Below the pieces are notes generated by a model. It did no database searches, was not told where the DNA came from, and was given only the letters and a program-made list of their open reading frames with translations. From assembly GCA_913050035.1 (NCBI GenBank), contig CAJXAC010000004.1, forward strand, positions 1 to 62,411: a stretch of DNA of 62,411 nt, read 5' to 3'. This document shows, in pieces, positions 4,169 to 60,727 of this stretch. Source of the DNA: an uncultured Gammaproteobacteria bacterium. Lineage in GTDB: Bacteria > Pseudomonadota > Gammaproteobacteria > Pseudomonadales > Azotimanducaceae. How positions within the stretch are numbered: position 1 is the stretch's first letter; each line of letters opens with the position of its first letter. The translations under genes were made by a program, and so were the position numbers.

Positions 4169-4188
4169 TATCACCCACAATTTTTCGC
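4169..4188 (-). promoter_or_regulatory. Recurrent TGGGKGAA element upstream of the propeller gene
   Basis: On the minus strand it reads gcgaaaaattgtgggtgata, matching the window-wide pattern GC-N-A/T-rich-TGGGKGA. It points toward the minus-strand gene starting at 4069, 100 bp away. Its presence also argues that the plus-strand PhyH starts downstream of it, at 4214. Confidence 0.4.
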
Positions 4189-4213
4189 GTACCTAAATTT
4201 TGAGCTTGGAGTG

Positions 4214-5023
4214 ATGGGCGCAATGCAGCTTAATGATGAAGAAAAAAGCACAGGACAATTGACCGAACAGACCCTGCAAGACGTAGCACTTAATCTGAAA
4301 AGTGAGGGTTATGTAATTCTGCACGAGGTGATGCCCCAGTCCTGGGTGACGGCAATGCGATCGCTATTTTGCGCGGAACTTGAAGCTAACTATCGCGACC
4401 AGCCAAGCCAACTCGCCAGCCAAAACGGCCACGGCGGGTTTCAACCGCCACTCAAAGCGCCGTTCTTAGACCCATCCATCATCGAGAATGAGATCGTTTT
4501 TCAAATCCTCGAATACACCTTAGGCAAGCATTTTTTCGGCTGCCTGCCCTACGGCTGCAATACCTCATTTCCGGGCAGCACAACGCAAAACGTCCATCGC
4601 GATTGCGGTCATCTATTTCCCGAATTAGACCTGGCACTGCCACCATTGCTCATCGTGGTGAATATCCTGCTTGACGAATTCACAGAATCAAACGGGGCAA
4701 CCGAAATATGGCCAGGATCGCATCGCCACATTGAGGCAGATCAAGCCGAAATCAGCACCCTGAAAATCGCGCCTAGCCGCTGGTCTGAACATACTTCTGT
4801 ACGAACGACAGCACCTGCAGGTTCGATAATCATACGCGATATGAGGACCTGGCACCGTGGTATGAGCAACACTACGGACGCATTACGCACCATGCTGTCC
4901 TTGGTTTATTACCGTCAGCACCTGTTACCCGACAATTTGAGATCATCGGATGAAGTCATCAACGAAGACGACTGGCAACAACTTTCCGAGCGCGCCAAGT
5001 GGATCTATCGACTATGGAAATAA
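4214..5023 (+). CDS. PhyH-family Fe(II)/2-oxoglutarate dioxygenase
   Basis: About 269 residues from ATG 4214; an upstream in-frame ATG at 4112 exists, but the extra 34 residues look non-conserved, and a regulatory-type element lies in them. TTGGAG precedes the chosen start closely. Iron ligands visible: H128-x-D130 in NVHRDCGH and distal H214 in RTWHRGMSN, with R225 as likely 2-oxoglutarate ligand. The WPGSHRH segment is typical of PhyH. It probably hydroxylates a small molecule in the cytoplasm. It is divergent from the propeller gene and runs into the xylulokinase gene 170 bp downstream. Confidence 0.8.
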   Translation: MGAMQLNDEEKSTGQLTEQTLQDVALNLKSEGYVILHEVMPQSWVTAMRSLFCAELEANYRDQPSQLASQNGHGGFQPPLKAPFLDPSIIENEIVFQILEYTLGKHFFGCLPYGCNTSFPGSTTQNVHRDCGHLFPELDLALPPLLIVVNILLDEFTESNGATEIWPGSHRHIEADQAEISTLKIAPSRWSEHTSVRTTAPAGSIIIRDMRTWHRGMSNTTDALRTMLSLVYYRQHLLPDNLRSSDEVINEDDWQQLSERAKWIYRLWK

Positions 5024-5051
5024 CCCCTAACCCTAGCACTCTGTTCCTGCA

Positions 5052-5070
5052 GAACGAAATTGGGGGAACT
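5052..5070 (+). promoter_or_regulatory. Recurrent TGGGKGAA element upstream of xylulokinase
   Basis: Reads gaacgaaattgggggaact, in the same orientation as the xylulokinase gene and 124 bp before its ATG. It suggests that the two sugar-kinase genes have their own promoter rather than depending on read-through from PhyH. Confidence 0.45.
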
Positions 5071-5193
5071 CACTAGGTTCCGCCCTTTCGTTCACAGCGC
5101 CCAGAGGGCCCAATAGCCTAATTGTTATTTTGGCCTGATGGGGTATAGATTTATGTTCCCACTGAGGCCGGTTTATCCACCCAAGGAAGTTAA

Positions 5194-6672: not shown

Positions 6673-6683
6673 CAGATGTTGAT

Positions 6684-9643: not shown

Positions 9644-9662
9644 GCGCATAAATGGGGGAATT
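9644..9662 (+). promoter_or_regulatory. Recurrent TGGGKGAA element upstream of enoyl-CoA hydratase
   Basis: Reads gcgcataaatgggggaatt, in the same orientation as the hydratase gene and 82 bp before its ATG. With the weaker site at 9609-9628 on the other strand it forms a back-to-back pair between divergent genes. Confidence 0.45.
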
Positions 9663-13974: not shown

Positions 13975-15174
13975 CTATCGCGACACGGCTGCCGGCCCAC
14001 GCCCTGGGAGCAAGTAGGTTCTCTGTATTTGTCCATCGTGGGGGCTTTGGGTAAATATTTGATCGATAGGCAACTCAACACCCCTCACCGAAACTTCATA
14101 ACCAATAACAGCCTCAAGAAGCGTCATCAGTAACTGCAAACGTTTGTAGCTCAGCACTCGGAAATTTTCTGGATTGAAGCTCTCGCGCAGCGCCCGATGC
14201 ATTGCCAAAACATCCTGTAAAGACAGAAAAGAATCTACTAGCCCCATAAGCGCTTTGCGTGAGCGCAAATCAGTTTCGGTCGTAAGAAACGGCGTCGCTT
14301 GCTCTTCGAGGATCGAACTCTTAGTCCGCAGCGCAATAAAATTTACCGAGCGCCCCGAAGAGGGAATTTTTACCGAGGCACAACCTGCATGAACAAATAG
14401 GTCGAGATCGGTTTGTGTCGAACCGAGAACGCCTACAGGAACTAGCTTGTACAAAATTTTGCCATAGCGGGTCTCTACTCGATCGAGCATTTCCCCGATA
14501 GAAAAGCACTCGTTACGCACACGCACGGGCATATCGTGATCGTCGATCATAATCATGTAGTTAATGCCGCTGTCGGCAAAAATCATTTCAGACGTGTCGC
14601 GTGGGATGCTGCGATTATCAAGGAATATAATCCCTCGGTTGGACGTAGCTGCTAACACTTTTTTCACCGAGTTAAATACTTCTACCGCGTCACTGACAAA
14701 TCCTGGGACCTCATGCGACCAAACGTGCGTAAGTAACGGGAAGTAGGTTTTGGACTCCGGGTCGCTAGCGATAATTTCGCAAACTTTGAAGCCCGCGCTC
14801 GCGCTCTCCTCCGCGCTCGGCAAAAACTCAATTTTACGAGCAAATTTTTTGTGCAGCTCGGAGAGATGAACAATTAAGCGCGTTTGCCCGCTAACTTTTT
14901 CGCTGCCAATCTTCAGCAATCGATCAGATATATTGTTTACTAGCTCCACATCATAGAGATTTCGCGAAAGGCGTTTGTGGGTAGCGTGCAGGCTAATGCT
15001 TTCGTCTAAGCCTCTGGCAATCTCCGTTAAGTTCACCGAGCGCGATACGCTAATACCCTTGAGCATGCTGTGCACAAATTTGCGCTCCACCTTGCCTAAT
15101 GGTTGAGCGAGAGAATCAGCACAGAGTCGATCCGCAAAATCACTTAGACTTACTTTTTGATGCTTATTAACCAC
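13975..15174 (-). CDS. Transposase-derived (IS4-like DDE) protein, probably domesticated
   Basis: 399 residues. The N-terminus has the DNA-binding pattern of IS4-like DDE transposases (ERKFVHSMLKGISVSRSVN followed by EIARGL and HATHKRLSRNL). The RNase H-like core follows: RLIVHLSELHKKFARKIEFL, where the first catalytic Asp is expected but His stands, then GIIFLDNRSIPRD with a plausible second Asp. The C-terminus (LHRALRE-like AMHRALRESFNPENFRVLSYKR split across 348-370) matches the usual transposase end. No inverted repeats or target duplication are visible around it, and it is followed in operon by an intact esterase. The missing Asp suggests it no longer transposes and may act as a DNA-binding protein. 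Family assignment is from memory of the pattern only. Confidence 0.6.
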   Translation of the reverse strand: MVNKHQKVSLSDFADRLCADSLAQPLGKVERKFVHSMLKGISVSRSVNLTEIARGLDESISLHATHKRLSRNLYDVELVNNISDRLLKIGSEKVSGQTRLIVHLSELHKKFARKIEFLPSAEESASAGFKVCEIIASDPESKTYFPLLTHVWSHEVPGFVSDAVEVFNSVKKVLAATSNRGIIFLDNRSIPRDTSEMIFADSGINYMIMIDDHDMPVRVRNECFSIGEMLDRVETRYGKILYKLVPVGVLGSTQTDLDLFVHAGCASVKIPSSGRSVNFIALRTKSSILEEQATPFLTTETDLRSRKALMGLVDSFLSLQDVLAMHRALRESFNPENFRVLSYKRLQLLMTLLEAVIGYEVSVRGVELPIDQIFTQSPHDGQIQRTYLLPGRGPAAVSR

Positions 15175-15342: not shown

Positions 15343-15361
15343 AATTCACCCAAAACTAGCG
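15343..15361 (-). promoter_or_regulatory. Recurrent TGGGKGAA element upstream of the transposase-derived gene
   Basis: Minus strand reads cgctagttttgggtgaatt. It points to the gene starting at 15174, 168 bp away, the longest spacing of the set, and overlaps the stop codon of the gene at 15356-15988. Confidence 0.35.
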
Positions 15362-15988
15362 AGCGTTTAATCCGCATAGGCTAATGAACTGATTCTTTTG
15401 ATCCTCGTTCATCGCAGGAAAATCGGGTACACCCAATTCCGTAGTGGGCCAATTCTGGAATTCTGGGGACGGCATTTGCATACTCGCGGCAATATTGTGA
15501 AGACCACCGCCTGCCTCTACCCCGTGGCTAAGCGCAACAATTATAGGCTTCGGCCACACCGGCGCCGGGACACCACCCATATCAGGCTTATAACCGAGGT
15601 AGGTTTCCATATGAGCAACCAATTGAGCTTCGTCTTCGCCTCGCTGCTTCTGACCGGCACTGCCGTAAAGAGTGCGAGACTGGTTACACAGATAAGCCCA
15701 GCGCAACTTGGCGTGAAAACCTGGGATGCTCAAGCATTGTTCAGAGACGCCATCGCCGCCTGAGATAACACCTTGGTGAACCATAAAATGGTAACCCGCG
15801 ATCGGTCGATCTTTACTCAAAAACCGATCGGGCGCGTGAGTGTAAATTTCACTAAACGCCCAAGAAAGATCTTCGGGCAGGTCTGCAGATTGCAGAATCT
15901 TGATGCCATACTCCGCGCAAGCTTGGCACCAAGCTAGTGAACCGAATTCGCCGACTGGCTCTAATGTGTTTACATCTATATCGAACAT
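15356..15988 (-). CDS. Protein of unknown function
   Basis: About 210 residues, not recognised. No signal peptide, no membrane segment. Conserved-looking features are a Cys-rich start (AWCQACAEYG), a His-containing AGYHFMVHQGVISGGDG stretch, PAPVWPKPIIVALSHGVEAGGG and a C-terminal FISLCGLNA. The balanced composition and good distance to a regulatory-type element suggest a real cytosolic enzyme or binding protein. The start is ATG 15988 (the frame has TTG 15994 just before) with GGGGGA 7 nt upstream. It is divergent from the ADP-ribosylglycohydrolase-fold gene at 16253. Confidence 0.6.
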   Translation of the reverse strand: MFDIDVNTLEPVGEFGSLAWCQACAEYGIKILQSADLPEDLSWAFSEIYTHAPDRFLSKDRPIAGYHFMVHQGVISGGDGVSEQCLSIPGFHAKLRWAYLCNQSRTLYGSAGQKQRGEDEAQLVAHMETYLGYKPDMGGVPAPVWPKPIIVALSHGVEAGGGLHNIAASMQMPSPEFQNWPTTELGVPDFPAMNEDQKNQFISLCGLNAR

Positions 15989-16053
15989 GTGCAAATCCCC
16001 CGCTCCAGATATTCATCCCCACGCTTCTGTGATTCAAGCAACATCCAGCAATA

Positions 16054-16073
16054 TTCCCCCAAAATTTCTGCGC
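16054..16073 (-). promoter_or_regulatory. Recurrent TGGGKGAA element upstream of the unknown protein
   Basis: Minus strand reads gcgcagaaattttgggggaa, 65 bp before ATG 15988 and pointing toward it. It is the left half of a mirror pair with the site at 16154-16170. Confidence 0.45.
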
Positions 16074-16153
16074 TTGCACTATGTCAGTCTGTTGCGCGGC
16101 ACGATCAAAATCCCCCAACTCATCCCTAACTGCCACTACCGCTATCGAACAAT

Positions 16154-16170
16154 CCGGTTTTGGGTGAAGT
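16154..16170 (+). promoter_or_regulatory. Recurrent TGGGKGAA element upstream of the first ADP-ribosylglycohydrolase-fold gene
   Basis: Reads ccggttttgggtgaagt, in the orientation of the gene at 16253, 82 bp upstream. Right half of the mirror pair in this divergent intergenic region. Confidence 0.45.
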
Positions 16171-16252
16171 AAGAGGCGACTTAGTTGACCCCCCGTATCA
16201 CCATTTCTAGTCTTAGCCCCGCCCTACCTGTAAGTCTCATAAGAACTCATCT

Positions 16253-25803: not shown

Positions 25804-26556
25804 CTATCTGTATCCCTGACGCGCATAGCGCGTCCAAGGCTCCCGCTTGCCGATGCCATAACCATTCAAAAATCCTTCAACCAACCATGACTTAAAGTCC
25901 GGAAAATCGTTTAACACGTTTATCCGGTCGAGTGCTGCTAACCACGGCGCTGGGTCGTAGCACACGTGGCGAGCGTCATAGACCCCATCCTCGAACACAC
26001 CGTAGCACGCGTGTAAAACCCCACATCGCGGTTGGCCTACGCTGCCTGGATTGATAAACGTTCGACTACCAATGTCGCGGGTGAATTGCACATGGGTATG
26101 GCCAAAAAGGACCAGTTCAGCGTCGGTGCCGCCCGCCAAAAGCTCAAAAACCTCGTCGCTTGCATCTGGCACTGCCGCTAAATCTCTGCTGCCTAGATCG
26201 CCGTGATGGAGATAGGCGGATATTCCCCCAAATTCGTACCAACCGGCATCGGTAAATGTACTAATTTTGGCGACCGCCGAGTCATCTAGATCGGCCAGAA
26301 TCCAATCATTAAGCGCGACCCATTCAGCAGGCCAACTGCGGAACGTACTCGGGTCAAGAACTTCATCATCGTGGTTCCCACGAATCGTAATAATTGGGTT
26401 CAGAGCGCTCAATAGTTCTAGGGTTTCATTCGCCTGCGGCCCCGACAAGAAAGCGTCGCCAAGAAAAACCGACGCATCAGCATCCCTCTCGGCTTGCATG
26501 ACCGCACGCAGTGCTTCAGCATTACCGTGTATGTCACTAATCAGCAGGATTTTCAT
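25804..26556 (-). CDS. Calcineurin-like metallophosphoesterase (YfcE type)
   Basis: 250 residues with all five metallophosphoesterase motifs: SDIHGN at the N-terminus, GDAFLSGP, RGNHDDEV, HHGDLGS and FGHTHVQF. Proteins of this type hydrolyse phosphodiesters or phosphomonoesters with two metals in the cytosol. It is the first gene of the operon that continues into the two ABC subunits and PhyH (28 bp to the next ATG). A copy of the recurrent element lies 50 bp upstream. Confidence 0.85.
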   Translation of the reverse strand: MKILLISDIHGNAEALRAVMQAERDADASVFLGDAFLSGPQANETLELLSALNPIITIRGNHDDEVLDPSTFRSWPAEWVALNDWILADLDDSAVAKISTFTDAGWYEFGGISAYLHHGDLGSRDLAAVPDASDEVFELLAGGTDAELVLFGHTHVQFTRDIGSRTFINPGSVGQPRCGVLHACYGVFEDGVYDARHVCYDPAPWLAALDRINVLNDFPDFKSWLVEGFLNGYGIGKREPWTRYARQGYR

Positions 26557-26605: not shown

Positions 26606-26623
26606 AGCTCCCCCATTTTTGCG
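26606..26623 (-). promoter_or_regulatory. Recurrent TGGGKGAA element upstream of the phosphoesterase-ABC-PhyH operon
   Basis: Minus strand reads cgcaaaaatgggggagct, 50 bp before the phosphoesterase ATG and pointing into the operon. Confidence 0.45.
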
Positions 26624-28210: not shown

Positions 28211-28230
28211 GGAACCCTAAATGGGTGATC
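28211..28230 (+). promoter_or_regulatory. Recurrent TGGGKGAA element upstream of the phosphotransferase gene
   Basis: Reads ggaaccctaaatgggtgatc, 82 bp before ATG 28312 in the same orientation. A weaker half-match (agatatgggttacct, minus strand, near 28195-28209) could serve the divergent GH32 gene. Confidence 0.4.
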
Positions 28231-28311
28231 TTCTAACCGACCGCAGTTTGTTGCTTGTCTTGCACAAGCGATAATGAGCGCAGACTTTGTATTACCCTGG
28301 AGCCGGTCTTA

Positions 28312-32013: not shown

Positions 32014-32826
32014 TTACACATTTGGCGCTTCAAAGGCTATCGCTCGAATAAAACTGGCTTCCAATTTTGGAGTATTCAAGGGCAAGCCAAAGTAAAACAC
32101 TCGCTGCTGCTGCAATACGTCGATATTCACAAGAGGATGCGCTATCGGGATGTTGGCGCCTAACAACATCCTCCTGATGGGCGAATTCGCTGGCGCAGCC
32201 GCTTTAAGTGCGTACTGCCACTGCACCCCAGTTGCCTGCAGCCCGAGCATTCTGATTCGCCTGTCTGAAATTAACCATTGCGCCGTCGACTCGGACAGCC
32301 AAGGCTGTTCCAGCCCTTCATAACAACTGGTCATCAGGAGTATGTCACCTTGGTTAACGTGCTCTAGATGCTCGGGCAATATTTCTTGACCACGCAAATC
32401 GCCTTTTTGACTTTGCATTCTAAAGCCTTCGCCTAGCGGATAACGCGCAGATTCGTCATCGGCCCTCGGCTCAAGGTGATCGAGGCTTACTACCGAAGCC
32501 GGCCCAACGAACGTTTCCAGCGGCATTTCCCAAAGCCCCTGCATCTCTTTGGGCATACCAGACCAGTGGTCTATGTGTCCTTTACCAGCTTGCACATGCG
32601 CGCCGTGATGCGATGTCATACGTTCCTGATGCCAGACTGCATCATCCTTAGGCGCCGAATAGAGCGTGAAGAGCGAATTATCCCCCGGAAATCGCCCCTC
32701 TTGCATTACCCACGGCTTGCCATAGGGATCTCTTGTGCCTTCTTCAATCGTGCCATCTACGCGGTGTACCCGAGCCTTGATCCGAGGACTCAAATCAACA
32801 ACTCGACACTCGTCAAATGAAATCAT
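32014..32826 (-). CDS. Cyclase-family (KynB-like) metal-dependent hydrolase
   Basis: 270 residues, same family as the next gene. Metal motif HHGAHVQAGKGH, again Gln where Asp is usual; core strands NQGDILLMTSCYEG and IRMLGLQATGVQWQY are present, with an insert (residues ~115-140) lacking in the paralogue. ATG 32826 has GGTGAG 7 nt upstream; the frame also offers GTG 32838. A recurrent regulatory-type element lies in the gap after the aldolase, so it may also be transcribed on its own. Confidence 0.75.
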   Translation of the reverse strand: MISFDECRVVDLSPRIKARVHRVDGTIEEGTRDPYGKPWVMQEGRFPGDNSLFTLYSAPKDDAVWHQERMTSHHGAHVQAGKGHIDHWSGMPKEMQGLWEMPLETFVGPASVVSLDHLEPRADDESARYPLGEGFRMQSQKGDLRGQEILPEHLEHVNQGDILLMTSCYEGLEQPWLSESTAQWLISDRRIRMLGLQATGVQWQYALKAAAPANSPIRRMLLGANIPIAHPLVNIDVLQQQRVFYFGLPLNTPKLEASFIRAIAFEAPNV

Positions 32827-32895
32827 GGTAACGCTCACCCTTGTATCCGCAGCCAGAGTACGCCATCAAATTAGACCGGCAACCCAGCACTCACG

Positions 32896-32915
32896 GTATT
32901 CACCCATTTACCGGC
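32896..32915 (-). promoter_or_regulatory. Recurrent TGGGKGAA element between aldolase and cyclase genes
   Basis: Minus strand reads gccggtaaatgggtgaatac, one of the best matches, 70 bp before ATG 32826. It would give the two cyclase genes an internal promoter within the operon. Confidence 0.45.
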
Positions 32916-33607: not shown

Positions 33608-34900
33608 TTAATTGCGTTCCGCCAGTCGCATCCTTTCCAAAGCACGGAAAAAGAAATCATCCTGCCCTAATGCACCTGCTTTCAGAACCAATGAGACAGG
33701 TTCTGGCGTGGATTGATGGCAGTAGCCGCCGCCTAGTTCATCGAATGCAGACACCTCAACCGAGGCGATATCTAAGGAGTTGATAACCTGCCCAGAGGTT
33801 TCGCCTCCAGCGACTACGAATTTCCTGAAACCCATGCCAAGCAATCCTCGTGCGACCTCGCCAATGATATGATCAGCCAGAGCCGCGGCGCCCTCGCGAC
33901 CGAGCATTGCTTGGTTTTTTTCAACGTCTGCAACATCGTCCGAGGTAGCGATAGCCAGCGGCTGATCCTCTGGTTGCGCTCTTACCCAAGCTAATATGCG
34001 TTCTACAAAAGCTGCAGGATCTCCTGCATCGAGCAAATTTATATGCAACAGGGGGTGCTGTTGGGCAAATCGCTGCAGCTGCCGCAGCGTCGGCCCCGCA
34101 CAACTACCAGCAATCACAGCTTCCCGCCCGGGAGACGGCGGCAGCAAAGTTTTTTGCGAGCTTTGCAATTCCGTGCCATTGCGTTGTCGCCATGCCCGCG
34201 CGAGAAATACTGGCAGCGCATCGGCCCCGGTAGTTAACGGCCAATCTAGGACAAACTCGCAGATACGTTCAAGATCCGCGTCGTCCGCTGTATCCGCGAT
34301 AAAAAGTTTTTTTCCATCCGCTTTGGCTAGATGGGATTCAACGGCCGCAGTGCCCTGTACCAAAACACCATGCGGGATTAGACCCACCTGCTCAGTAGTT
34401 TGGGGTTCAAGTACTTCAACAAGATTAGAGTTCAACATCGGTGTGACCGGATCATGTTTCTTAAACGAATCCTCTAACGGGGTTGCACCGATGAACATCC
34501 TGCCCTGAAAGACAGTAACCGTATGCCGCGGAAAAGCGGGGCAAAATATCGTCTTGGATCCGCCGCTCGCCTCCAGCATCGCAAGCGCGACGGGACCAAT
34601 ATTGCCTCGATCAGTGCAATCGAACGTAGCGCAGTACTTATAGTAGAACCGTTGAATACCCAGTTTTTGTAAACCCGCGACAACAGCCTGCGCTTCGAGC
34701 ACAGCCAGATCTGGCTCAATTAGTCGGATTTTTCTCGCAACGACTACAGCTTCTGCTGTGGTCGGGTCAATTTCTGCCAATGCTTCAACTGAACTTACCA
34801 ATGGACACCGGATACCCTCGGCCTCAAGCAAGCTCGCGACCATCATGCCCCCGGTGAGATCATCGGCAAGTATTCCTAACTCCAAAACCACGACTCCCAT
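33608..34900 (-). CDS. otnK: Four-carbon acid-sugar kinase (OtnK/DUF1537 family)
   Basis: 430 residues. N-terminal GILADDLTGG with the two Asp of the substrate site, YYKYCATFDCTDRGNIGP, CPAFPRHTVTVFQG, then a C-terminal nucleotide domain with GSCAGPT and VVAGGETSGQVINSL. These are the signatures of 3-oxo-tetronate and D-threonate/erythronate kinases. It would phosphorylate a four-carbon acid, and the downstream aldolase would split the product. It is the first gene of the minus operon and has a recurrent element 65 bp upstream. Confidence 0.85.
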   Translation of the reverse strand: MGVVVLELGILADDLTGGMMVASLLEAEGIRCPLVSSVEALAEIDPTTAEAVVVARKIRLIEPDLAVLEAQAVVAGLQKLGIQRFYYKYCATFDCTDRGNIGPVALAMLEASGGSKTIFCPAFPRHTVTVFQGRMFIGATPLEDSFKKHDPVTPMLNSNLVEVLEPQTTEQVGLIPHGVLVQGTAAVESHLAKADGKKLFIADTADDADLERICEFVLDWPLTTGADALPVFLARAWRQRNGTELQSSQKTLLPPSPGREAVIAGSCAGPTLRQLQRFAQQHPLLHINLLDAGDPAAFVERILAWVRAQPEDQPLAIATSDDVADVEKNQAMLGREGAAALADHIIGEVARGLLGMGFRKFVVAGGETSGQVINSLDIASVEVSAFDELGGGYCHQSTPEPVSLVLKAGALGQDDFFFRALERMRLAERN

Positions 34901-34964
34901 TTAATCCGCCGCCCAGCCATCGTAAGCCATTCTCAAGCACGAGCCTTCGCATGGGCCCCTCAAA

Positions 34965-34984
34965 GTCACCCAAATTTGCAACCA
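34965..34984 (-). promoter_or_regulatory. Recurrent TGGGKGAA element upstream of otnK
   Basis: Minus strand reads tggttgcaaatttgggtgac, 65 bp from the otnK start and pointing toward it. A second half-match (minus GGGTAAA, around 34994-35000) lies just behind it. It is paired back-to-back with the plus-strand site at 35021. Confidence 0.45.
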
Positions 34985-35020: not shown

Positions 35021-35040
35021 GCGCTAGAAATTGGGGGAAA
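35021..35040 (+). promoter_or_regulatory. Recurrent TGGGKGAA element upstream of PhyH
   Basis: Reads gcgctagaaattgggggaaa, a near-consensus copy 85 bp before ATG 35125 and in its orientation. Confidence 0.45.
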
Positions 35041-35124
35041 ACGCAATATGGCCGTGTGTAAATGTTCGAGCCGACATATAAAGTGCGCTGCAATAGATAC
35101 TACAAGCCAGCGTAAAAACGACAC

Positions 35125-36832: not shown

Positions 36833-36852
36833 GCACAGTCAATTTTGGGGTA
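36833..36852 (+). promoter_or_regulatory. Possible variant of the recurrent element upstream of the sulfatase
   Basis: Reads gcacagtcaattttggggta, with GGGGTAA where GGGGGAA is usual. Orientation and 82-bp distance to ATG 36934 fit the other sites. Confidence 0.3.
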
Positions 36853-36933
36853 ATGTATCGCCATACCGGATTGCATTATTTTGCCCGCGGTAAATACGTT
36901 ATGGGATAGTGACTGGATAGAACCGAGCGATTC

Positions 36934-40285: not shown

Positions 40286-42328
40286 CTAATCTGCCGCCGC
40301 AACTTCCACTTTGTGAGTTGCGCTGCGGCCATCTGCGACGATCAGGCCGATCGCGCCGCTGTCCAGCGACGAATCTCGCGCTGTTAACACCGTTGAACCA
40401 TTGATCTCACCTACCAGTTCATCGCCTACTACCCGCAACGTCATATCCAAAGTGTCGCCGAACGACCAATTAAATTCGGCCTCGGCTAATACGCTTTCTT
40501 CGTGCAAGCTTTTCACCAACTGGACTTTTTGCTCGCGCGTGATCAGCAGCGCATAAAATCGAGTTAAGCCCTGCACCCGTGCCGCGACACCAGCGCGCGA
40601 GACAAGATGCGGCGTTACATCAGCACTGACCGCATAGTCAGTCCATTCACGGGTGCCCTGAGAAATCATGCCAAGACCCTCGTTTTGCACGAGCCGGAAC
40701 ATCTCCGTCCAACCTACTAATTGATCAACTGCGTCAACCCAGGCACGCCTCCACATTAGTCCTTTATGCTTGGGCCGCTCGAATGTCACCTGCGGATTCC
40801 CCCGCCAACCGACATGATCTAAATGGAGGGAAACGTCTTTATTTAAGCGAATGCCCACTTCGAAAATCGGCCCAGGTAGACTGGGAACCTGAAGTGAAAG
40901 ATTGGTGGCATCCCCGGTAGTGGTGTCCACATCAATATAATCCACCTCGTCATCCTCACCGTAGTAGGCGATGTATAGATTTGCACCGGGCTCGCTAATA
41001 CGCGCAGACACATTTTGACCCGAAAATATCCTTGGCGAAGCCATAAGTTTGTAGTGCGCCTTTTCAAAGTATTCAGCGACTTCTATCGATGGTGCAAATA
41101 CAGGTGTGCCTATTCGCGCTCCTGACTTACCGACAATGCGCAACGACCCACCCTGCAAGTTGCTCAACTCCGCCGTGCCCGATTGAACTTGGAAGCCCTG
41201 AACAGAGCCAGGAAAGCTGAAATGGAATTGCGCACCTTGCTTCGGTTCGAAACTGGGCTCGCCAGCAAGCGTATGGCCCATGTTGATGATCTGTTTGGCT
41301 TCGCGCGCGCAATCACTTATACAGCGATCGCCGTCCGAGGTCGGACAGTACAACCGGTCGGCGACTGGGCCGCGCCAATCAATACCTCGATCAGCACTCG
41401 CATCGATGCCTTCTAAGCCCACCAGTAAGCCCATAAGGCAGCCCACATTGCCGGAATTACAGTCTGTATCCCAACCGCAGGTGTTAACAATCTTTAAAGT
41501 CTCAGAAAAATCGCCCTCGCCGTGCAGTAGCGAGTGAATGATCAAACCGTGGTTCGGCACCATATGGCAGTTGCCGCCATATTTGTCATACCCATAGTTT
41601 GCTTCCAACTTCTCTCTTGTGGCACGCCAATCTTTCTCTACGGCATACCAGGCACGCAAGTCAGCGATCATCCTAGCAATAACCGAATCTTTAGGAATAT
41701 AACTCAGGCCAATATCAATGAGCTTCTGAATGTCGTTTTCCACAAAAGCCATAGCCTCCATAGCGGCTAAAACCTTCGCGCCATTAACAGCTTCCCCGTC
41801 GTGGCTTACTCTAGCCGCGGCTTCGGCAAACTTTACAGCCTGATCCGGATCACCCGGGGCGACCATGGCCCATCCGTCAATGAATATTTGCGCGCCAATT
41901 TGCTCCGCTACCACCTGCCCATTCATTTCCATTGACCCACTCATCGGTGCGTCTATACCGTTGGCGAGACGCAGGTAGGCGGTGTGCTCAGTGGACTGGC
42001 CTAAGCCACCCCACCACAATACGCTTCTGCCCTTGATGAGATAATTGAGCCAACTTTCGCCGATATCTTTTGGACTGATGTCTGGGTTAGTTCCGTGATC
42101 TTCCAGCGCGCGAATGAAAGTGAACGTGCCAGCTATGTCGTCATCCGTGACGATAAGCGGTACGTCGAGCTTGTCGTGCACATAATATTCAATATCGCCG
42201 AGCCGTTGCTGAATCCGCTCGTACGACCATCCCTCAAAAGGCCGCCCCAAATAGACGCCGATTACCTTACCTAATACCCCTGCGTAAACACGCTCAGCAT
42301 AGTCTGGCGTTATCTGCACCATCTCCAA
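40286..42328 (-). CDS. ADP-ribosylglycohydrolase-fold protein with C-terminal concanavalin-like domain
   Basis: 680 residues. Residues ~8-340 are the ARH fold: AGVLGKVIGVYLGRPFEGWS, metal motif VTDDDIAGTF, a GGNCHMVPNHG loop and TCGWDTDCNSGNVGCLMG. After a beta-rich linker, the last ~170 residues (WTDYAVSADVTPHLVSRAG, LDMTLRVVGDELVGEINGS and GAIGLIVADG) are a LamG/DUF1080-type beta-sandwich that often binds sugars. The combination suggests hydrolysis of a glycoside rather than of protein ADP-ribose. AGGAGG precedes ATG 42328. It is divergent from the second ABC pair. Confidence 0.8.
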   Translation of the reverse strand: MEMVQITPDYAERVYAGVLGKVIGVYLGRPFEGWSYERIQQRLGDIEYYVHDKLDVPLIVTDDDIAGTFTFIRALEDHGTNPDISPKDIGESWLNYLIKGRSVLWWGGLGQSTEHTAYLRLANGIDAPMSGSMEMNGQVVAEQIGAQIFIDGWAMVAPGDPDQAVKFAEAAARVSHDGEAVNGAKVLAAMEAMAFVENDIQKLIDIGLSYIPKDSVIARMIADLRAWYAVEKDWRATREKLEANYGYDKYGGNCHMVPNHGLIIHSLLHGEGDFSETLKIVNTCGWDTDCNSGNVGCLMGLLVGLEGIDASADRGIDWRGPVADRLYCPTSDGDRCISDCAREAKQIINMGHTLAGEPSFEPKQGAQFHFSFPGSVQGFQVQSGTAELSNLQGGSLRIVGKSGARIGTPVFAPSIEVAEYFEKAHYKLMASPRIFSGQNVSARISEPGANLYIAYYGEDDEVDYIDVDTTTGDATNLSLQVPSLPGPIFEVGIRLNKDVSLHLDHVGWRGNPQVTFERPKHKGLMWRRAWVDAVDQLVGWTEMFRLVQNEGLGMISQGTREWTDYAVSADVTPHLVSRAGVAARVQGLTRFYALLITREQKVQLVKSLHEESVLAEAEFNWSFGDTLDMTLRVVGDELVGEINGSTVLTARDSSLDSGAIGLIVADGRSATHKVEVAAAD

Positions 42329-42395: not shown

Positions 42396-42415
42396 ATTTC
42401 CCCCATTTTCGCCGC
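42396..42415 (-). promoter_or_regulatory. Recurrent TGGGKGAA element upstream of the second ADP-ribosylglycohydrolase-fold gene
   Basis: Minus strand reads gcggcgaaaatgggggaaat, 67 bp before ATG 42328 and pointing to it. Mirror partner of the site at 42521. Confidence 0.5.
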
Positions 42416-42520: not shown

Positions 42521-42540
42521 AAGCAGTTTATGGGTGAACT
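42521..42540 (+). promoter_or_regulatory. Recurrent TGGGKGAA element upstream of ABC pair 2
   Basis: Reads aagcagtttatgggtgaact, 69 bp before ATG 42610 and in its orientation. With 42396-42415 it gives one outward-pointing site per divergent gene. Confidence 0.5.
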
Positions 42541-42609
42541 AATAAATACAAGCGTTGACCCACCGCGACGCGGCTTTATAGGCTGATCCGAGTAACGTCG
42601 GGGGCGTTC

Positions 42610-45132
42610 ATGACCAATTCAAACCGGGCCAAGGCTCTGCCATTTCTTGGCACAGGCCCCGTAAACGAAGATCAAAAAGACAGTCCTGCCGCAGACCAGG
42701 GCTTCGTCGCCATTGCCATGATTTTTGCCCGAACTTGGCCATTCCTGAAGCCCTATATTCTTGGATACTGGCGTGAGCTGTCATTTTCAGGCAGCGACGC
42801 GGCAACAAGCCCGACACCTTTCGGACACACCGAATCCGAGACGCCTTCCAGTGCACCTGATGCGCCTACCGATAACCAGGCGACACGATGGAGTTTTAAG
42901 CATATACCACCGCTCGCCACCCTAACCGCTGCCCTTGGCCCAGTTACTGGGGTGCTGCCCTATAACGAAAGTTGGTTATATGATTTTTTGCTGATCACCA
43001 CTTTTGCAATGGCAGTCCTTTCGTGGTGCCTGCTCGTTGCCAAGAAAAAAGTTTATGCGGTTCTTTCGACAAGTCTTTTCATTATCGGAGCTGTGAGTTT
43101 TTTATTTGCGGTATTCGTCGTCGAGGGCCTACTCGACAATGTTTATATCGCGATCATGTGCGCCGTCAGCGCAGGGATTTGGTTGTTTCAATACCAGTTT
43201 CAAGCCGGCAGGTTGCGCTTCAGAATCCGCCTTGGAAGCCACTTAATTTATTACTTTGTCGGAGTATGGGCATCCACACTACTGCTGATTTTGATTTCAT
43301 TGTTTTCTGTAGACGTAGTCAGCCAATCGATTCTGCAGGCGAAACCGCTGACGCCGTTTATTGCGGATCTAATCGCAGATCCTGAACTCGCGGGTACCCC
43401 AATAGAGGGCTCCAAACCAGTTGATTCGCCCAACCAAGACAGTGCCAATATAGAACTCAATCCTCTCTCGTCGGAGCAGCGCCACAGCCTGAAATCGGTC
43501 TATGCCGTGTTTTTGGTACTCGGCTGGCTCGCGCAGTTGCCGCTTGGTTTCGCACTACCCTATTACTACATCTACATCATGCAAAGGGTGAATCAGGATC
43601 TACGCGTTGCTTTAGTAGGCCGCTGGCATCAGTTATCCCTGCGCTACCACAGCAATCATCGGGTTGGCGATTCTGTATATCGAATTTATCAGGACAGCTC
43701 TCAAGTAACGGCTGTCATCGGCGAAATTACGCAAGCGCTACAGGTCCTGATCACCTATTTTACCGGCATCATCTTTCTGTTTGCGCTGGATCCAATTTTA
43801 GGGCTGATGGCGCTGTCAATTATAGTTGGCACCTTAATATGGGCGCGCTGGTTTTCACCCCGCATGCGAGTCAATTCTTTGGCCAGCCGCCAAGCTAATT
43901 CGAATTTCACATCACGCGTACAGGAAACGTTTGCAAGTACCCGGCTTATCAAGGCTTTTAGCACAGAGGAGAAAGAGCAACAGCGTTTCGAGTCAGACTC
44001 CATCAATGCGTTCAATGCGTCATACCGCGTCCGCTCATTAATGGCGGTTATTGGGATTGTCACCTTCACAATCGCCGCGGGCGCGCTGTTATATGGGCAA
44101 TACCTGACCGCCATCTGGGCATTTGGCGAGCGCGAAACCTACGCCAGTGTATTAGTGGCGCTCGTCGGCCTAAGTTTCTTACGCTGGAATCTTTCCGCAT
44201 ATCAGTCCGCTCAGGAATATTTAGGCGCTTCCAGCGTCTCCATCCGTGACTTAGTCGACCGCTGGACCCGGGCACAAGACATGGCTATGGGCCTGAATAG
44301 AGTATTCGATATTCTCGACATTGAGCCCGACGTCAAATCCAAACCTAATGCCCCGGCACTAGGAGGATTTCACCACGAGCTTCGCTTTGACAAAGTAAGC
44401 TTTGCTTACGAACCCGAAAGACCTGTTTTGCAGGACATTAGCTTTAGCGTAAAGCCAGGTACCGTGACCGCAATTGTCGGGCCAACCGGTTCCGGCAAAA
44501 CCAGCTTAATGAGTTTGATTTCCCGGCTTTTCGATCCCGACGCTGGCTCGGTATCAATTGATGGTGTGGATCTTAGAGATCTAGACCTAGAGAGTTTGCG
44601 CGCAAATGTATCGGTCGCTTTACAGGAAAACGTCTTATTTGGTTTATCTTTACGCGACAACATTCGCTATGCACTGCCAGAGGCTACCGACGCGCAGCTT
44701 ATGGAAGCCGTGAGGGTCGCCTGCGTAGAGGAATACATTGCCAGCTTACCCGAAGGGTTAGACACGGTATTGAGTGATCGAGGCGGCAAGCTATCCACCG
44801 GCCAGCGCCAACGTCTTTCAATCGCGCGCGCCCTTGTAAAAGGCGCACCGATCCTTGTTCTCGACGAGCCCACCGCAGCCCTTGATGCTGCTACCGAGCA
44901 TCGCGTTCTCCAGCGCCTCACAGAGTGGGCGCAGAAGCGAGCGGTATTTCTGATTACGCATCGCATATCCACTATTCAACAAGCGGACACTATCTTGTAT
45001 ATCGACCAAGGCAGACTGCTCGAGCAGGGATCGCATACCCAACTCATGTCGATCGAGAGTGGTTTCTACCGCGCTTTTGTTGAGACCGAGGCAAGGCTTT
45101 CACAGCGAACCTTTAACGAGCAGCAGCTATGA
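42610..45132 (+). CDS. ABC exporter half-transporter with long N-terminal extension, first subunit (pair 2)
   Basis: 840 residues, about 180 more than its paralogue at 23808. The extra N-terminus has a polar first ~95 residues followed by four predicted hydrophobic segments (around residues 98-225), then the ordinary membrane domain with RVNQDLRVALVG and LRYHSNHRVGDSVYRIYQD, and a complete nucleotide-binding domain: GPTGSGKTS, LSTGQRQR, ILVLDEPTAALD, ITHRIST. GGGGG lies 4 nt before ATG 42610. Its stop overlaps the next ATG (ATGA), so the two subunits are translationally coupled and likely form a heterodimer. Confidence 0.9.
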   Translation: MTNSNRAKALPFLGTGPVNEDQKDSPAADQGFVAIAMIFARTWPFLKPYILGYWRELSFSGSDAATSPTPFGHTESETPSSAPDAPTDNQATRWSFKHIPPLATLTAALGPVTGVLPYNESWLYDFLLITTFAMAVLSWCLLVAKKKVYAVLSTSLFIIGAVSFLFAVFVVEGLLDNVYIAIMCAVSAGIWLFQYQFQAGRLRFRIRLGSHLIYYFVGVWASTLLLILISLFSVDVVSQSILQAKPLTPFIADLIADPELAGTPIEGSKPVDSPNQDSANIELNPLSSEQRHSLKSVYAVFLVLGWLAQLPLGFALPYYYIYIMQRVNQDLRVALVGRWHQLSLRYHSNHRVGDSVYRIYQDSSQVTAVIGEITQALQVLITYFTGIIFLFALDPILGLMALSIIVGTLIWARWFSPRMRVNSLASRQANSNFTSRVQETFASTRLIKAFSTEEKEQQRFESDSINAFNASYRVRSLMAVIGIVTFTIAAGALLYGQYLTAIWAFGERETYASVLVALVGLSFLRWNLSAYQSAQEYLGASSVSIRDLVDRWTRAQDMAMGLNRVFDILDIEPDVKSKPNAPALGGFHHELRFDKVSFAYEPERPVLQDISFSVKPGTVTAIVGPTGSGKTSLMSLISRLFDPDAGSVSIDGVDLRDLDLESLRANVSVALQENVLFGLSLRDNIRYALPEATDAQLMEAVRVACVEEYIASLPEGLDTVLSDRGGKLSTGQRQRLSIARALVKGAPILVLDEPTAALDAATEHRVLQRLTEWAQKRAVFLITHRISTIQQADTILYIDQGRLLEQGSHTQLMSIESGFYRAFVETEARLSQRTFNEQQL

Positions 45133-47153
45133 GCAGCACCCCACCCGTAAGGCAAAAAAGTGATCCCGAGATCTCGTTTCAACAAACAATACGAGTCTTT
45201 GCCAAACTACTTTCATACCTGAGCCTGTTTAAAGCTCGTATCTTCACAAAACTCGGCTTTATTACCTTTGAGCACGTGCTGCGTATTCTGCTTTTACCCT
45301 GGCCACTGAAGATTATTGTCGACCATGTCATTCTCGGAGAGCCCATCAACGCCGATGGCAGCGGGTTCCCCGACTACATGCAACCTATCCTGTTTTTCCT
45401 CTCGGACAAAACATCTCAGGAAATCATGTCTTGGATCTTGGTGGTCGGCATCATGATGGTAATTTTGATGGGGATGACCCCCAACCGAGGGACCGGTAGA
45501 AATGCAACCGGGCGCTATACCGGTGCCGCGGCAGGGTCGTTGGGTGCCGCATCCGCAGAACTGGCGCAAGGTCACGATACCGCTACACAGACAGAAAACG
45601 CGTCTAATGCTGCATATAGTGAAATGGGCGGACTACTGGGCATTCTAGATTTCAATATTCACATGCGACTGTCCCAATCCCTAAACCACTTACTGCGTTC
45701 CGAGCTGGCAGAGCATATTAAATCCTTACCCATGACCACTCTGGACGACCAGCGCATTGGCGACAGCGTGTATCGGGTGATCTATGACACCACCAGCGCC
45801 TCGGGCATTTACGGGGAATTAACCTTAGGACTTTACGGCGGTTTGCTGATGGTCGCACTAACCCTGTACGTCATGTTCACAAGCTTCGGGAGCGCGCCGG
45901 AAGTGATTATCGTCGGCGTCTTAGTAGGGCCACTGACCTTTATGTTTGTCATCCCCTTCGCGCGGCTTGCGCGCAATAAAAGTCAGGCCAGCCGCCTCGC
46001 TGGATCCGAAACCACCAGCAACATCGAAGAGGGCATGGCGAACGTACTTGCGGTTCAGAGTATGGGCGGTAACAAACGCGAGAGCGAGCGGTTCGCCAAC
46101 GCAAGTAACGAATCTTTTCGTAAGTTCCGTGCCGAGGTGCTGGTGAAGTTACTCTTCGGTCATGCCGGTTCTTTGGCTTTTCTTACCGGACAAATAATTT
46201 TCTTTTTGGTCATCGCCGGCTATGTCATCGACGGCACATTTACCGCTGGCGACTACTTCGTGCTGTTCTACTACTTCTTCGTACTTAGTGCTGTATTTTA
46301 TTCCTTCGGCTTCCTATACACGGATTTACAGGTAGCCATTGCCGGCTTAGCTAGAGTGTTCAATCTGCTAGACCTGCCAGGCGAAAAATTTGCAGACGGT
46401 ATCGCTATTCCGGAAATTCAGCACGGCATAAAAATGCGCAGCGTCACACTCACCTATCCTGATGGCCGTGTTGCCTTAAAAGACGTTAACTTTGAAGCGC
46501 AGTTGGGAAAAATTGTCGCCTTAGTAGGACCAACCGGCGCGGGGAAGACCAGCCTCGCCTATCTGATACCAAGTTTCTTACAGCCCACTAGCGGCAACGT
46601 CACAATTGATGGGGTAGACGTTAGAGACATCTCAGTGCCCAGTCTACGAAAGCAGGTGGCCTATGTTTTTCAAGAAACCCAGCTTTTTTCCGATTCAATC
46701 GCCGACAATATCCGATATGGAAACCGCGCTGCCGCTATCGAAGACGTACACGACGCAGCAAAAACCGCCGGCGCACACGATTTCATTATGGCGCTGCCAG
46801 AAGGCTACGACACAAATCTTGGCACCATAACCAGCAAACTCTCCGTTGGTCAGAAACAGCGGATATCAATAGCCCGGGGCTTACTGAAAAAGTCCAAGAT
46901 ACTAATTCTCGACGAACCCACATCAGCACTCGATCCTGAAACCGAATCCTACCTCGTCGATGCCTTACATAAGGCCGCTACAGAAAAATTAGTGGTGATC
47001 ATTGCACACCGACTCTCAACCATCACCCACGCAGACAAGATCTATTTTTTAGAAGATGGTCAAATACTAGAATCAGGCTCCCACCATGACCTGATGAGTA
47101 CAAAAAACGGGCGCTACCGTCACTATATTGAATTACAGGCAGGAGCGAATTGA
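45129..47153 (+). CDS. ABC exporter half-transporter, second subunit (pair 2)
   Basis: 674 residues. TM1, a long Gly/Ala/Thr-rich insert (residues ~115-165, GRNATGRYTGAAAGSLGAA type), the ABC membrane domain with TTLDDQRIGDSVYRVIYD, then GPTGAGKTS, LSVGQKQR, ILILDEPTSALD and IAHRLST, all intact. It is clearly the paralogue of the subunit at 21842, including the insert and the DTATQTE-like stretch before the second membrane region. The downstream LLM gene starts with TTG overlapping its stop. Confidence 0.9.
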   Translation: MSSTPPVRQKSDPEISFQQTIRVFAKLLSYLSLFKARIFTKLGFITFEHVLRILLLPWPLKIIVDHVILGEPINADGSGFPDYMQPILFFLSDKTSQEIMSWILVVGIMMVILMGMTPNRGTGRNATGRYTGAAAGSLGAASAELAQGHDTATQTENASNAAYSEMGGLLGILDFNIHMRLSQSLNHLLRSELAEHIKSLPMTTLDDQRIGDSVYRVIYDTTSASGIYGELTLGLYGGLLMVALTLYVMFTSFGSAPEVIIVGVLVGPLTFMFVIPFARLARNKSQASRLAGSETTSNIEEGMANVLAVQSMGGNKRESERFANASNESFRKFRAEVLVKLLFGHAGSLAFLTGQIIFFLVIAGYVIDGTFTAGDYFVLFYYFFVLSAVFYSFGFLYTDLQVAIAGLARVFNLLDLPGEKFADGIAIPEIQHGIKMRSVTLTYPDGRVALKDVNFEAQLGKIVALVGPTGAGKTSLAYLIPSFLQPTSGNVTIDGVDVRDISVPSLRKQVAYVFQETQLFSDSIADNIRYGNRAAAIEDVHDAAKTAGAHDFIMALPEGYDTNLGTITSKLSVGQKQRISIARGLLKKSKILILDEPTSALDPETESYLVDALHKAATEKLVVIIAHRLSTITHADKIYFLEDGQILESGSHHDLMSTKNGRYRHYIELQAGAN

Positions 47154-57518: not shown

Positions 57519-57765
57519 TTGCTTCCCCCCAATTGTGTATGTCGTTGCGAGTTCACTTTACTATGCTATCCATTGGTTAATTGCGTATACCACCGTGATA
57601 GAGTTTCGCGTCCAGATGCTTTCCTCTACCCCCAAACTTCTTCTGGGTTTATCCCTTTCATAACAATACCGCCGTGCGAATTTTCCCAACTCGACGTCCA
57701 ATCCGGCTCGACGCACAAAGCTCCCTTAAATTTAAAAGTAACTGATATCGAGCGGAACACGCGTG

Positions 57766-58581: not shown

Positions 58582-58646
58582 GGTTTGCTCTCGTGTTAAT
58601 TTTTGCTTTCAGCATTTACTGCCCCGTCAATACTTTACCCCATGGG

Positions 58647-59084
58647 CTACAAAGTCTGGCGCATCTCAAGCCCTACATTGATGAATCCGTATTTCGCGTA
58701 GAACGGCTCATTGTGTTTAGTCGATTCAAGCAGATACAGGCCAAACTCTTTGCACCCTCTGGCCTTTGCCAAGCTGATAGTTTCCTCAAGCAACAGCCCG
58801 CCGACATTCTTGCCCCGAGCCTTCGGGTCAACCACCAGCTCTTCTAACTGACAATATTCGCCGTTGTAGCGCAAAGCCAAATTAAAAGAAATAGAGGCCA
58901 TCCCAAGAAGGTCACCGTCCTCCTCAGCAACAACCAAGCAACCCCTAGCTTTAGAAATTAGCTCGTTGAAGGTGCCGGAATCAAATAACCCATGGTCATT
59001 AGCGCTTGCGCCAACAAGAATGTTCAGCAGCTCTGAGCACTTCGACAGATCAGCCGACCCAGCAAGCCTTATACTTACGCTCAT
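58647..59084 (-). CDS. GNAT-family N-acetyltransferase
   Basis: 145 residues: the family core LEELVVDPKARGKNVGGLLLEE contains the Q/RxxGxG/A acetyl-CoA loop, preceded by GDLLGMASISFNL and followed by GLYLLESTKHNEPFYAKYGF. It transfers acetyl from acetyl-CoA to an amine; substrate unknown. GGGGGG-TGAGTA lies directly upstream of ATG 59084. Confidence 0.85.
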   Translation of the reverse strand: MSVSIRLAGSADLSKCSELLNILVGASANDHGLFDSGTFNELISKARGCLVVAEEDGDLLGMASISFNLALRYNGEYCQLEELVVDPKARGKNVGGLLLEETISLAKARGCKEFGLYLLESTKHNEPFYAKYGFINVGLEMRQTL

Positions 59085-59199
59085 TACTCACCCCCCAAAA
59101 ATGGCCAGACCCTACTAGACTCGTCTGCCGAAGACCTGCGATCTGATTATTGGCTGGCCAGTTGGCACTCTCACTACGCCCGCGTCATCCACATGGAAG

Positions 59200-60576
59200 T
59201 CAATTCTCATACGATTCAACTATGGCCTGGTAAGTTGCGACCTGGAGCTCGGATCTCAGAGGCCAAGGTGAGGACATAAGCTGGATCATACTCACAACTA
59301 CAACCTCCTCGACCGGGTCGATCCAAAAGACGGTTCCTGCAGCGCCTCCCCAGTTATATTCTCCAGCGCTACCAATTACACCCGCGTATGCAGGGTTAGT
59401 AACGACCCCGAACCCGAGCCCAAAACCAACACCAGAAGTATTCCCATCAGTGGTTGGTTGTTCACCGATGCCACCCATTTGCATAGAGGGATTAAGATGA
59501 TTTTGTGCCATATAGGCAACGGTTTTGGGACTCAAAATTCTATTCCCCTCGAGAATTCCACCACTCCTCATCGCTTCAGCGAATCGGGCGTAGTCCATTG
59601 CGGTTGAAACTAGGCCGCCGCCACCGGAGAACAAACTGACGCTCTCATAGTCAACCATCGCAACATTTTTTCGGCTCTTAAAGAACGCTGCAAAAGGGTT
59701 GTCCGCGGGAACTTCTGAGACATCCATCAGTCCACCGGTCTGCGGATCCAATATATGATTGGGCAGAAACCTCGCCATCTTATTATCGGGAACCTCAAAA
59801 AACGTATCCTCCATCCCTAGCGGCTTGAATAGATTTTCTCGCAGATAAACATCAAAAGATTGCCCGCTTAATCTCTGCACTATTAAACCCGTAATATCTA
59901 CAGCGATCGAATAGTGGTATCGCGAGCCCGGCTGAAACTTCAACGGCAATTGCGCAACTCGTTGTGCAAATTCGTCTAAATCTTGGGCAGCCCAAATGTC
60001 TGCACCTAGATAAGCTCGGTCAACAAGATCAGTCTGGGCAGCGAATCCGTATGAGAGACCAGTTGTATGTGTAAGCAACTGGTGCATGGTCATGGGCTTA
60101 GCCTGATCTTCCAACTGCCCATCGGCATTAAGGACCTTCACGTCTTTGAGTTCTGGTACGAACTTGGCGACCGGGTCGCTTAGTTGGAATTTCCCTTGTT
60201 CATAGAGTTGCATAGCGGCCGCTGCAGTGATCGGTTTGGTCATGGAATAAATTCTAAACAGATCATCTTTTTGCATGGGTCTATCGTCATCAGAACCCCG
60301 GGCACCGTGCGCTTTGTAATGAACGACTTTGCCATTGCGCATTACAAGATTAACCATGCCTGCAACTTGATTATTCTTGACATACCGCTCGCCCAAGGCA
60401 GTCATCCTTTCCATGCGATCAGAAGACATGCCGACCTTTTCTGCTTTTGATGATGGAAGATCTTTAGTTTCGCTAGCTGATGCTGGTCCAGCCAACAGAA
60501 CAAGGGCCAATAGCAAGCCTCGAATAAAGCCCTTTTGAGGCAACCCTGAAAGCTCTATGCGTCGCGTATAGTTCAC
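59200..60576 (-). CDS. Exported serine beta-lactamase-fold esterase
   Basis: 458 residues. Signal peptide (LLLALVLLAGPASA, cleavage near residue 35), then the class C/EstB fold: SxxK at S111-M-T-K114, a Tyr motif YHYSIAVDITG around 217, and WGGAAGTVFWIDP late. The YxN motif of true beta-lactamases reads YSI here, favouring an esterase. It acts in the periplasm. Start is GTG 60576 with GGGGAGAG 3 nt upstream. Confidence 0.85.
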   Translation of the reverse strand: MNYTRRIELSGLPQKGFIRGLLLALVLLAGPASASETKDLPSSKAEKVGMSSDRMERMTALGERYVKNNQVAGMVNLVMRNGKVVHYKAHGARGSDDDRPMQKDDLFRIYSMTKPITAAAAMQLYEQGKFQLSDPVAKFVPELKDVKVLNADGQLEDQAKPMTMHQLLTHTTGLSYGFAAQTDLVDRAYLGADIWAAQDLDEFAQRVAQLPLKFQPGSRYHYSIAVDITGLIVQRLSGQSFDVYLRENLFKPLGMEDTFFEVPDNKMARFLPNHILDPQTGGLMDVSEVPADNPFAAFFKSRKNVAMVDYESVSLFSGGGGLVSTAMDYARFAEAMRSGGILEGNRILSPKTVAYMAQNHLNPSMQMGGIGEQPTTDGNTSGVGFGLGFGVVTNPAYAGVIGSAGEYNWGGAAGTVFWIDPVEEVVVVSMIQLMSSPWPLRSELQVATYQAIVESYEN

Positions 60577-60707
60577 TTCTCTCTCCCCAATCGATTATAT
60601 GCGTTAGCGCCAATCCTACTTCCGATCATTTAGTCTTGCCAGAGCTCTCCCTGCCCATGAACGAACTGATGAGGTAATTTTCCGCGCCTCCTTTGTCAAA
60701 TGCCGCA

Positions 60708-60727
60708 GCTCCCAAAAAATGGGTGGA
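60708..60727 (+). promoter_or_regulatory. Possible copy of the recurrent element upstream of the nucleoside hydrolase
   Basis: Reads gctcccaaaaaatgggtgga, with GGGTGGA at the end; 66 bp before GTG 60793 and in its orientation. It also contains a CCCA...TGGG inverted repeat, so it may be unrelated. Confidence 0.3.

Follow-up and report, generated by a model that had tools for sequence, protein, structure and literature searches.

Introduction

Transposase-derived transcription factors are established in eukaryotes, where FHY3/FAR1 is reported to be a transposase turned transcription factor (PMC6000157) and SETMAR to have retained binding to terminal inverted repeats (TIRs) (PMC9062482). The bacterial case found in print is TldR, a nuclease-dead transposon protein that became an RNA-guided regulator with chromosomal targets (PMC13418256). 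InsA of the insertion sequence (IS) IS1 shares the end-binding domain of the transposase and regulates transcription by binding the IS ends (PMC12428005). Among the matches listed in the open-licence literature, judged by title and the start of the abstract, no bacterial transcription regulator derived from a DDE transposase was described. Here we analysed contig CAJXAC010000004.1 of an uncultured gammaproteobacterium of the Azotimanducaceae (62,411 nucleotides; "the window" throughout), in which a short asymmetric DNA element recurs before the genes of an island that also encodes a protein of unrecognised family, P0002.

P0002 differs from each of these systems. It shares homology over most of its length with IS4-superfamily DDE transposases (nearest intact relative found, L191), whose relatives' TIRs carry the same W4TGGGK core as the island element. 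Unlike those transposases, the P0002 family lacks the first catalytic aspartate (29/29 members), has no TIR-like partner downstream (0/30) and is represented here by one genomic copy. InsA is reported to act on its own IS and to repress it, whereas the putative targets of P0002 are many chromosomal operons, probably activated. TldR is described as RNA-guided and TnpB-derived, whereas P0002 descends from a DDE transposase and its predicted target is a DNA sequence of fixed form. The protein is homologous to DDE transposases and unmatched in Pfam, and an Rfam scan gave no matches, no further search for a guide RNA having been made. FHY3/FAR1 and SETMAR, unlike P0002, have eukaryotic hosts. They also come from other transposase superfamilies than P0002. 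From sequence comparison, we consider it likely that the element is the DNA-binding site of P0002, a catalytically dead domesticated transposase that would activate the island through TIR-like operators.

Results

The element is gene-directed and confined to one island

An earlier note on this DNA had listed 13 main sites of the element, and all of them were found where it had placed them. The core has the form W4TGGGKGAA. The leading GC-N that the note had counted as part of the element did not hold up: positions -12 to -6 carried at most 0.13 bit each and varied between orthologues, and a leading GC was therefore ruled out. None of the five weaker sites that the note had added matched the core exactly (0/5). 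One of them (36833), the variant TTTTGGGGTAA before a sulfatase gene, was conserved in L089/L093 (one genome) and L092, and was not conserved in L095, L096 or L101/L109 (G and L numbers are our handles for genomes and loci). The right-hand third, described earlier as nearly free of copies, contained no exact copy, the last good one lying at 42531. The sites, the candidate regulator gene and two predicted promoters are as follows.

4168-4181, minus strand: element before gene 2711-4069
5057-5070, plus strand: element before the FGGY kinase (5194) and pfkB kinase (6684) genes; conserved in G014
9649-9662, plus strand: element before the enoyl-CoA hydratase-type gene 9744; conserved in G014
13975-15174, minus strand: P0002, candidate regulator, a 399-aa putatively catalytically dead DDE-transposase homologue, single copy in the genome
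15343-15356, minus strand: element 172 bp before P0002; conserved in G002 and G014
16052-16065, minus strand: element before gene 15356-15994 (unknown family)
16157-16170, plus strand: element before the ARH-fold gene 16253
16185-16213, plus strand: predicted promoter of the ARH-fold gene 16253, -35 TTGACC (16185-16190) and -10 TAGTCT (16208-16213)
26606-26619, minus strand: element before the metallophosphatase gene 25804-26556
28218-28231, plus strand: element before the PPDK_N/PEP-utilisers gene 28255
32897-32910, minus strand: element before the cyclase gene 32014-32838
34963-34976, minus strand: element before the otnK-type gene 33608-34900 and the aldolase II gene 32940
35028-35041, plus strand: element before the PhyH gene 35125
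36842-36855, plus strand: variant element TTTTGGGGTAA before the sulfatase gene 36934; conserved in some relatives
42396-42409, minus strand: element before the ARH-fold gene 40286-42328; conserved in six loci
42527-42540, plus strand: element before the ABC operon 42610-47153; conserved in six loci
42555-42584, plus strand: predicted ABC promoter, -35 TTGACC (42555-42560) and -10 TAGGCT (42579-42584)

The pattern WWWTGGGKGA matched 13 times in the window, and 12 of these matches lay in intergenic DNA, which makes up 8.4% of the window. All 12 were oriented towards the next gene, with the start codon 27-172 bp away by our own gene calls. In 1000 dinucleotide shuffles of the intergenic segments, 0.19 copies were expected (maximum 3), and the true core ranked top among 210 permuted cores, the runners-up (8, 7 and 6 copies) being those with most letters in common with it. 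The excess over shuffled sequence is thus real, and every intergenic copy is gene-directed. The copy at 4169 (ATTGTGGGTGAT) is one base off the WWW rule and lies within a long open reading frame (ORF; 4112-5023), which has an in-frame ATG downstream of the copy. One WWWTGGGKGA copy, at 26224-26233 (minus strand), lies inside the metallophosphatase gene, likewise in G002, and was left out of the regulatory count. A second TGGGGGA, preceded by GAGT, was seen at 16111-16117 (minus strand), in the gap that it shares with the elements at 16061 and 16161.

The window is an entire contig (C4) and about 2.4% of the sequence of a 2.615-Mb genome in 120 contigs. WWWTGGGKGAA matched 21 times genome-wide, 10 of them inside the window (one of these, 26223, in a gene); because the reversed-pattern control gave 11 matches across the whole genome, the 11 matches outside the window represent no excess. 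A looser pattern (at most one mismatch) gave 327 genome matches vs 238 for its control. A 65-nt profile built from 36 promoters (R1) matched nine places in the genome at E ≤ 10, all nine in the window; since its training included the window's 13 sites, four of which fall below the threshold, the informative result is the absence of matches elsewhere. In a 98%-identical contig of 114 kb (G002:C10), which reaches 68 kb left of the window, the 13 WWWTGGGKGA matches all lay at 73.6-111.1 kb. Two sites on other contigs of the present genome (G000:C6:1025 and C7:899) lie outside ORFs of at least 60 aa but were rejected as regulon members, being neither R1 matches nor followed, by eye, by a properly spaced -35 box. 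Contig G000:C7 also carries a gene that is proteorhodopsin-like by eye (L053, 2-499, minus strand); some 400 bp upstream of it stands a single TTTTGGGTGAA without promoter spacing.

The element has a fixed position relative to sigma70-type promoter boxes

In the gap between the divergent ARH-fold gene and ABC operon, both elements were kept in six loci (ABC identity 74-100%), while most of the flanking sequence had diverged. Named relatives of the ABC-transporter gene are gammaproteobacterial metagenome-assembled genomes, e.g. ARS1012 (98%), UBA6968 (80%) and OM182 bacterium MED-G155 (84%). Across 43 chosen sites in 15 groups, with the divergent ARH-fold/ABC pair (groups l and m) supplying 36 of the 63 pairs compared, identity within groups was high in three blocks: -4 to +14 (the element), +21 to +30 and about +44 to +54, with the T of TGGG as reference. 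Because the sites were picked for the core, its own conservation is in part built in; the two other blocks are free of that bias. The -35 box lies 24 nt and the -10 box 47-48 nt past this T. Offset +24 was the best of 125 for a sigma70 -35/-10 pair at the 13 window sites (78 matches; mean 51.3, standard deviation 7.5), and TANN[ACT]T peaked at +47/+48 in 6 of the 13. With a transcription start predicted near +60, the element would occupy about -64 to -46, which is where an activator would sit, and the whole is read as a putative sigma70-type promoter with an activator-type site upstream. Together, the fixed -35/-10 spacing, the conservation across species and the confinement to the island support well what the earlier note had proposed, namely one regulon with an asymmetric promoter-linked element.

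These spacings bear on two other readings. The block at +21 to +30 is located some 16 nt beyond TGGGKGAA. This spacing resembles that of promoters for alternative sigma factors of the extracytoplasmic function (ECF) type, as if the element were the -35 of one; that reading leaves both the third block (+44 to +54) and the best -35/-10 pair at +24 unexplained, and we rejected it as very improbable owing to the third conserved block. Alternatively, P0002 might bind the element but repress the promoters, as InsA is reported to bind the IS1 ends and repress the IS1 promoter (PMC12428005). The site, however, lies upstream of the -35 box at a fixed distance rather than across -35/-10 or the start, and the -35 and -10 boxes are poor at many sites, which suits activation and counts against repression; we regard repression as unlikely.

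P0002 is homologous to DDE transposases and lacks their catalytic residues

The earlier note had stated that the window holds no regulator gene, so that one would act from elsewhere. This is very probably wrong, the best candidate being the transposase-derived P0002 (13975-15174), which Pfam does not recognise. Searches of Pfam, NCBIfam, PDB sequences and PHROGs gave nothing significant for P0002, and plasmid and viral searches with members of its family found no relative. The family profile, however, matched L191, a 424-aa ORF in a genome of the same class (E = 3e-27), and the homology covered profile positions 6-348 of 395, most of the length (i-E 4.3e-32, Z = 5000). L191 itself scored 23.2 bits against Pfam DDE_Tnp_1, just above the 23-bit cut-off, and its relatives on Thermus plasmids carry transposase annotation. 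The catalytic D, D and E were all present in the five transposases compared (L191, L242, L245 and two Thermus proteins). In the 29 family members, the first D was replaced throughout, by H (21), Q (5), R (2) or N (1); the second D was kept in 22, an E stood in the third column in 3, and no member had the complete triad. A midpoint-rooted tree, which carried long-branch warnings, split the five transposases from the 29 family members with 100/100 support. Given this split and the catalytic loss, the simplest reading of the sequences would be that catalysis was lost once, in the ancestor of the P0002 family.

The ends of the related insertion sequences resemble the element. Read from the inside outwards, the inverted repeats on either side of L191 are AAAATGGGGAGACGCYAG, and L245 has perfect 18-bp ends, TTTTTGGGGAAAGTCCTG. 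L242, L243, L244, L246, L248 and L249 carry AAAAATGGGGAGA at their single visible end; L243 is the right end of a copy of which the left end, L250, has AAAAGTGGGG. The end of L239 is AAAAAATGGGGAGACGCCAG, and in the Thermus copies L240 and L241 the right end reads TTTTGGGTAAAGCCCTG and the left end ATGTGGGTAAAGTCCTG. W3TGGGKARA stood at an end in 11 of 12 related IS copies (L247 showed none), a count in which the ends of the L242-L250 set were chosen by eye from printed matches, L240 and L241 are near-copies of each other, and L244 and L249 come from a single genome and may be two halves of one copy. Among 30 unrelated DDE_Tnp_1 transposases, W3TGGGK occurred within 300 bp of an ORF end in two and W3TGGGKARA in one. 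Element and TIR have a common core with the same G/T at the K position, and the strength of the likeness between these sequences is repeated in-register agreement across many copies. In the regulated promoters, the gene stands on the side equivalent to the outer side of a transposon end; the asymmetry of the element fits a TIR origin, transposase ends being asymmetric themselves. As to L240 and L241, relatives of the ancestral IS on Thermus plasmids, their ends read CAGGRCTTTACCCA, and the T. parvatiensis copy has, by eye, a flanking 10-bp duplication, TTACACATAA.

The same TIR resemblance would be expected if the copies were neutral relics of transposon ends. Against it, the copies are conserved between species together with -35/-10 boxes while their flanks diverge, and all 12 intergenic core copies face the next gene; we regard this explanation as extremely improbable.

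P0002 co-occurs with the promoter type in its genus and often carries the element upstream

The P0002 family had members in 42 of the 206 genomes from its taxonomic family, but in 3 of 369 from a class sample (this genome counted). P0002 had one match in its own genome (G000), with orthologues in the G002 and G014 islands, and did not qualify as a mobile repeat. Ratios of nonsynonymous to synonymous substitution rates were 0.04 (synonymous rate 3.9) and 0.10 in two pairs, and three more pairs were saturated. Among 39 same-genus genomes, at least two R1 matches were present in 10/13 with P0002 vs 1/26 without (p = 4.5e-6); after removal of genomes known in the R1 model or near-identical, the counts were 4/7 vs 1/26 (p = 0.004), with L095, which is in the model, possibly being one of the 39. 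The P0002-less exception, G007, is 70% complete. The carriers with fewer than two R1 matches (G013, G022 and G215) have a divergent P0002 (44-45% identity), yet the element lies upstream in each. Six of the g50 genomes (G129, G177, G198, G157, G186 and G096) had a P0002 homologue within 3 kb of an ABC homologue.

We searched 450 bp upstream and the first 60 bp of the ORF for TGGGKGA with at most one non-W among the preceding four bases. The element was present at 23 of 30 P0002 homologues, 16 in the gene's sense, and at 3 of 80 control upstreams; the 23 include L139, counted via a minus-strand match inside the called ORF alone, and L147, which matches at the called start. Permuted cores (n = 210) gave a mean of 1.4; the top count, 19, came from one that nearly copies the core. 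Within 450 bp downstream, the element was found at 0/30 homologues, other kinds of inverted repeat not having been sought. G121 has two P0002 homologues (L118, 9911-11095, plus strand, and L143; 46% and 51% identity), with divergent elements before the first and none found before the second.

A different explanation would be that an ordinary regulator encoded elsewhere (such as one of the AraC, LysR or LuxR type) uses the element as its operator, with P0002 merely co-regulated and its ancestry irrelevant to regulation. Such regulators are common in metabolic islands, asymmetric sites upstream of -35 are known with them, and binding by P0002 is a prediction. No known regulator family, these types included, was matched among the 51 called window genes in Pfam (E ≤ 0.001), a survey that was limited to the window, the rest of the genome not having been surveyed. 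Nor would an ordinary regulator account for the identity of the element with the core of the IS ends of P0002's transposase relatives, or for its presence at P0002 genes in many genomes; we consider this explanation unlikely.

Neighbouring genes

The gene adjoining P0002, 15356-15994 (minus strand), encodes a 212-aa protein of unknown family, has its own element and has relatives in the G002, G014 and G012 islands. Gene 2711-4069 (minus strand) encodes a 452-aa protein without Pfam match, with a relative only in G002 among the loci compared. The window begins inside a gene (1-799, plus strand) that is TonB-dependent receptor-like by eye in comparison with G002:C10.

Discussion

Several results weigh against binding of the element by a transposase-derived P0002. 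On ancestry, when the 29 family members were scanned against NCBIfam, four matched IS4 transposases (best E 0.029) and two matched IS1634 transposases (best E 0.0027), all weakly and alongside other, similarly weak names. By hhalign, the family scored against 27 DDE_Tnp_1-locus ORFs like 40 (of 47) control proteins run; against six IS4_2-locus ORFs (one below the family cut-off), the score of 20.6 was exceeded by 3 of 150 column shuffles, with an alignment of 178 columns where the longest among the shuffles had 115. The AlphaFold model, built from two sequences, was poor (predicted local distance difference test score 42.5, predicted template modelling (TM) score 0.41); its best PDB match, and the sole one below E 0.001, was the Tn5 transposase 1muh (Foldseek E 5.2e-5, TM 0.28 by query). 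As to the ends, TIR (W4TGGGKARA) and element (W4TGGGKGAA) differ constantly after K (A vs G), and the element matrix alone gives four TIR ends p = 0.004-0.029 each. Outside the genus, R1 matches occurred in 8/29 genomes with P0002 vs 16/138 others, a poor separation. R1 also matched in the P0002-less G119, G152 and G175, the matches of the last two being alike and coding-DNA-like by eye. Seven of the 30 homologues, including the three most basal in the drawn tree and that of G012, had no upstream element. The homologue sets are mutually non-independent; because many homologues are closely related, the 23 upstream cases are not independent either. The regulator survey was confined to window genes. 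Finally, we infer DNA binding by P0002, activation over repression, descent of the sites from TIRs and any inducer on a computational basis only.

On the other side, computational support comes from promoter anatomy, co-occurrence, homology, loss of catalytic residues and TIR likeness. We propose that an ancestral IS4-like insertion sequence would have had TIRs of the form W4TGGGKARA...CYWG, an asymmetric transposase site. In this bacterial family, one copy (13975-15174) may have lost its catalytic residues and flanking ends and been retained under purifying selection, while its DNA preference would have stayed closely similar, W4TGGGKGAA. Such sites would then have come to stand in front of weak sigma70-type promoters, 24 nt before the -35 hexamer; bound there, at about -64 to -46, the protein would bring in RNA polymerase and turn on the island and its own gene. 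The predicted targets are kinases, the PhyH oxygenase, the GH32 neighbourhood, ARH-fold enzymes, otnK/aldolase and ABC transporters. Rather than descending from real ends, the sites may have arisen by point mutation for a TIR-reading protein. We hold it reasonably probable that P0002 represents a new family of bacterial activators, that is, a DDE transposase without catalysis whose end recognition was kept and which would control the metabolic island through 13 or more TIR-like operators upstream of -35, a regulatory network derived from an insertion sequence.

If this is true, P0002 would be a protein-guided, DDE-derived regulator with a recognisable set of promoters, in which a mobile element could be followed as it becomes a regulatory network. 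A regulon that annotation had left without a regulator gains a named candidate gene and a defined site, which would offer an entry to gene control in uncultured OM182-like marine bacteria.

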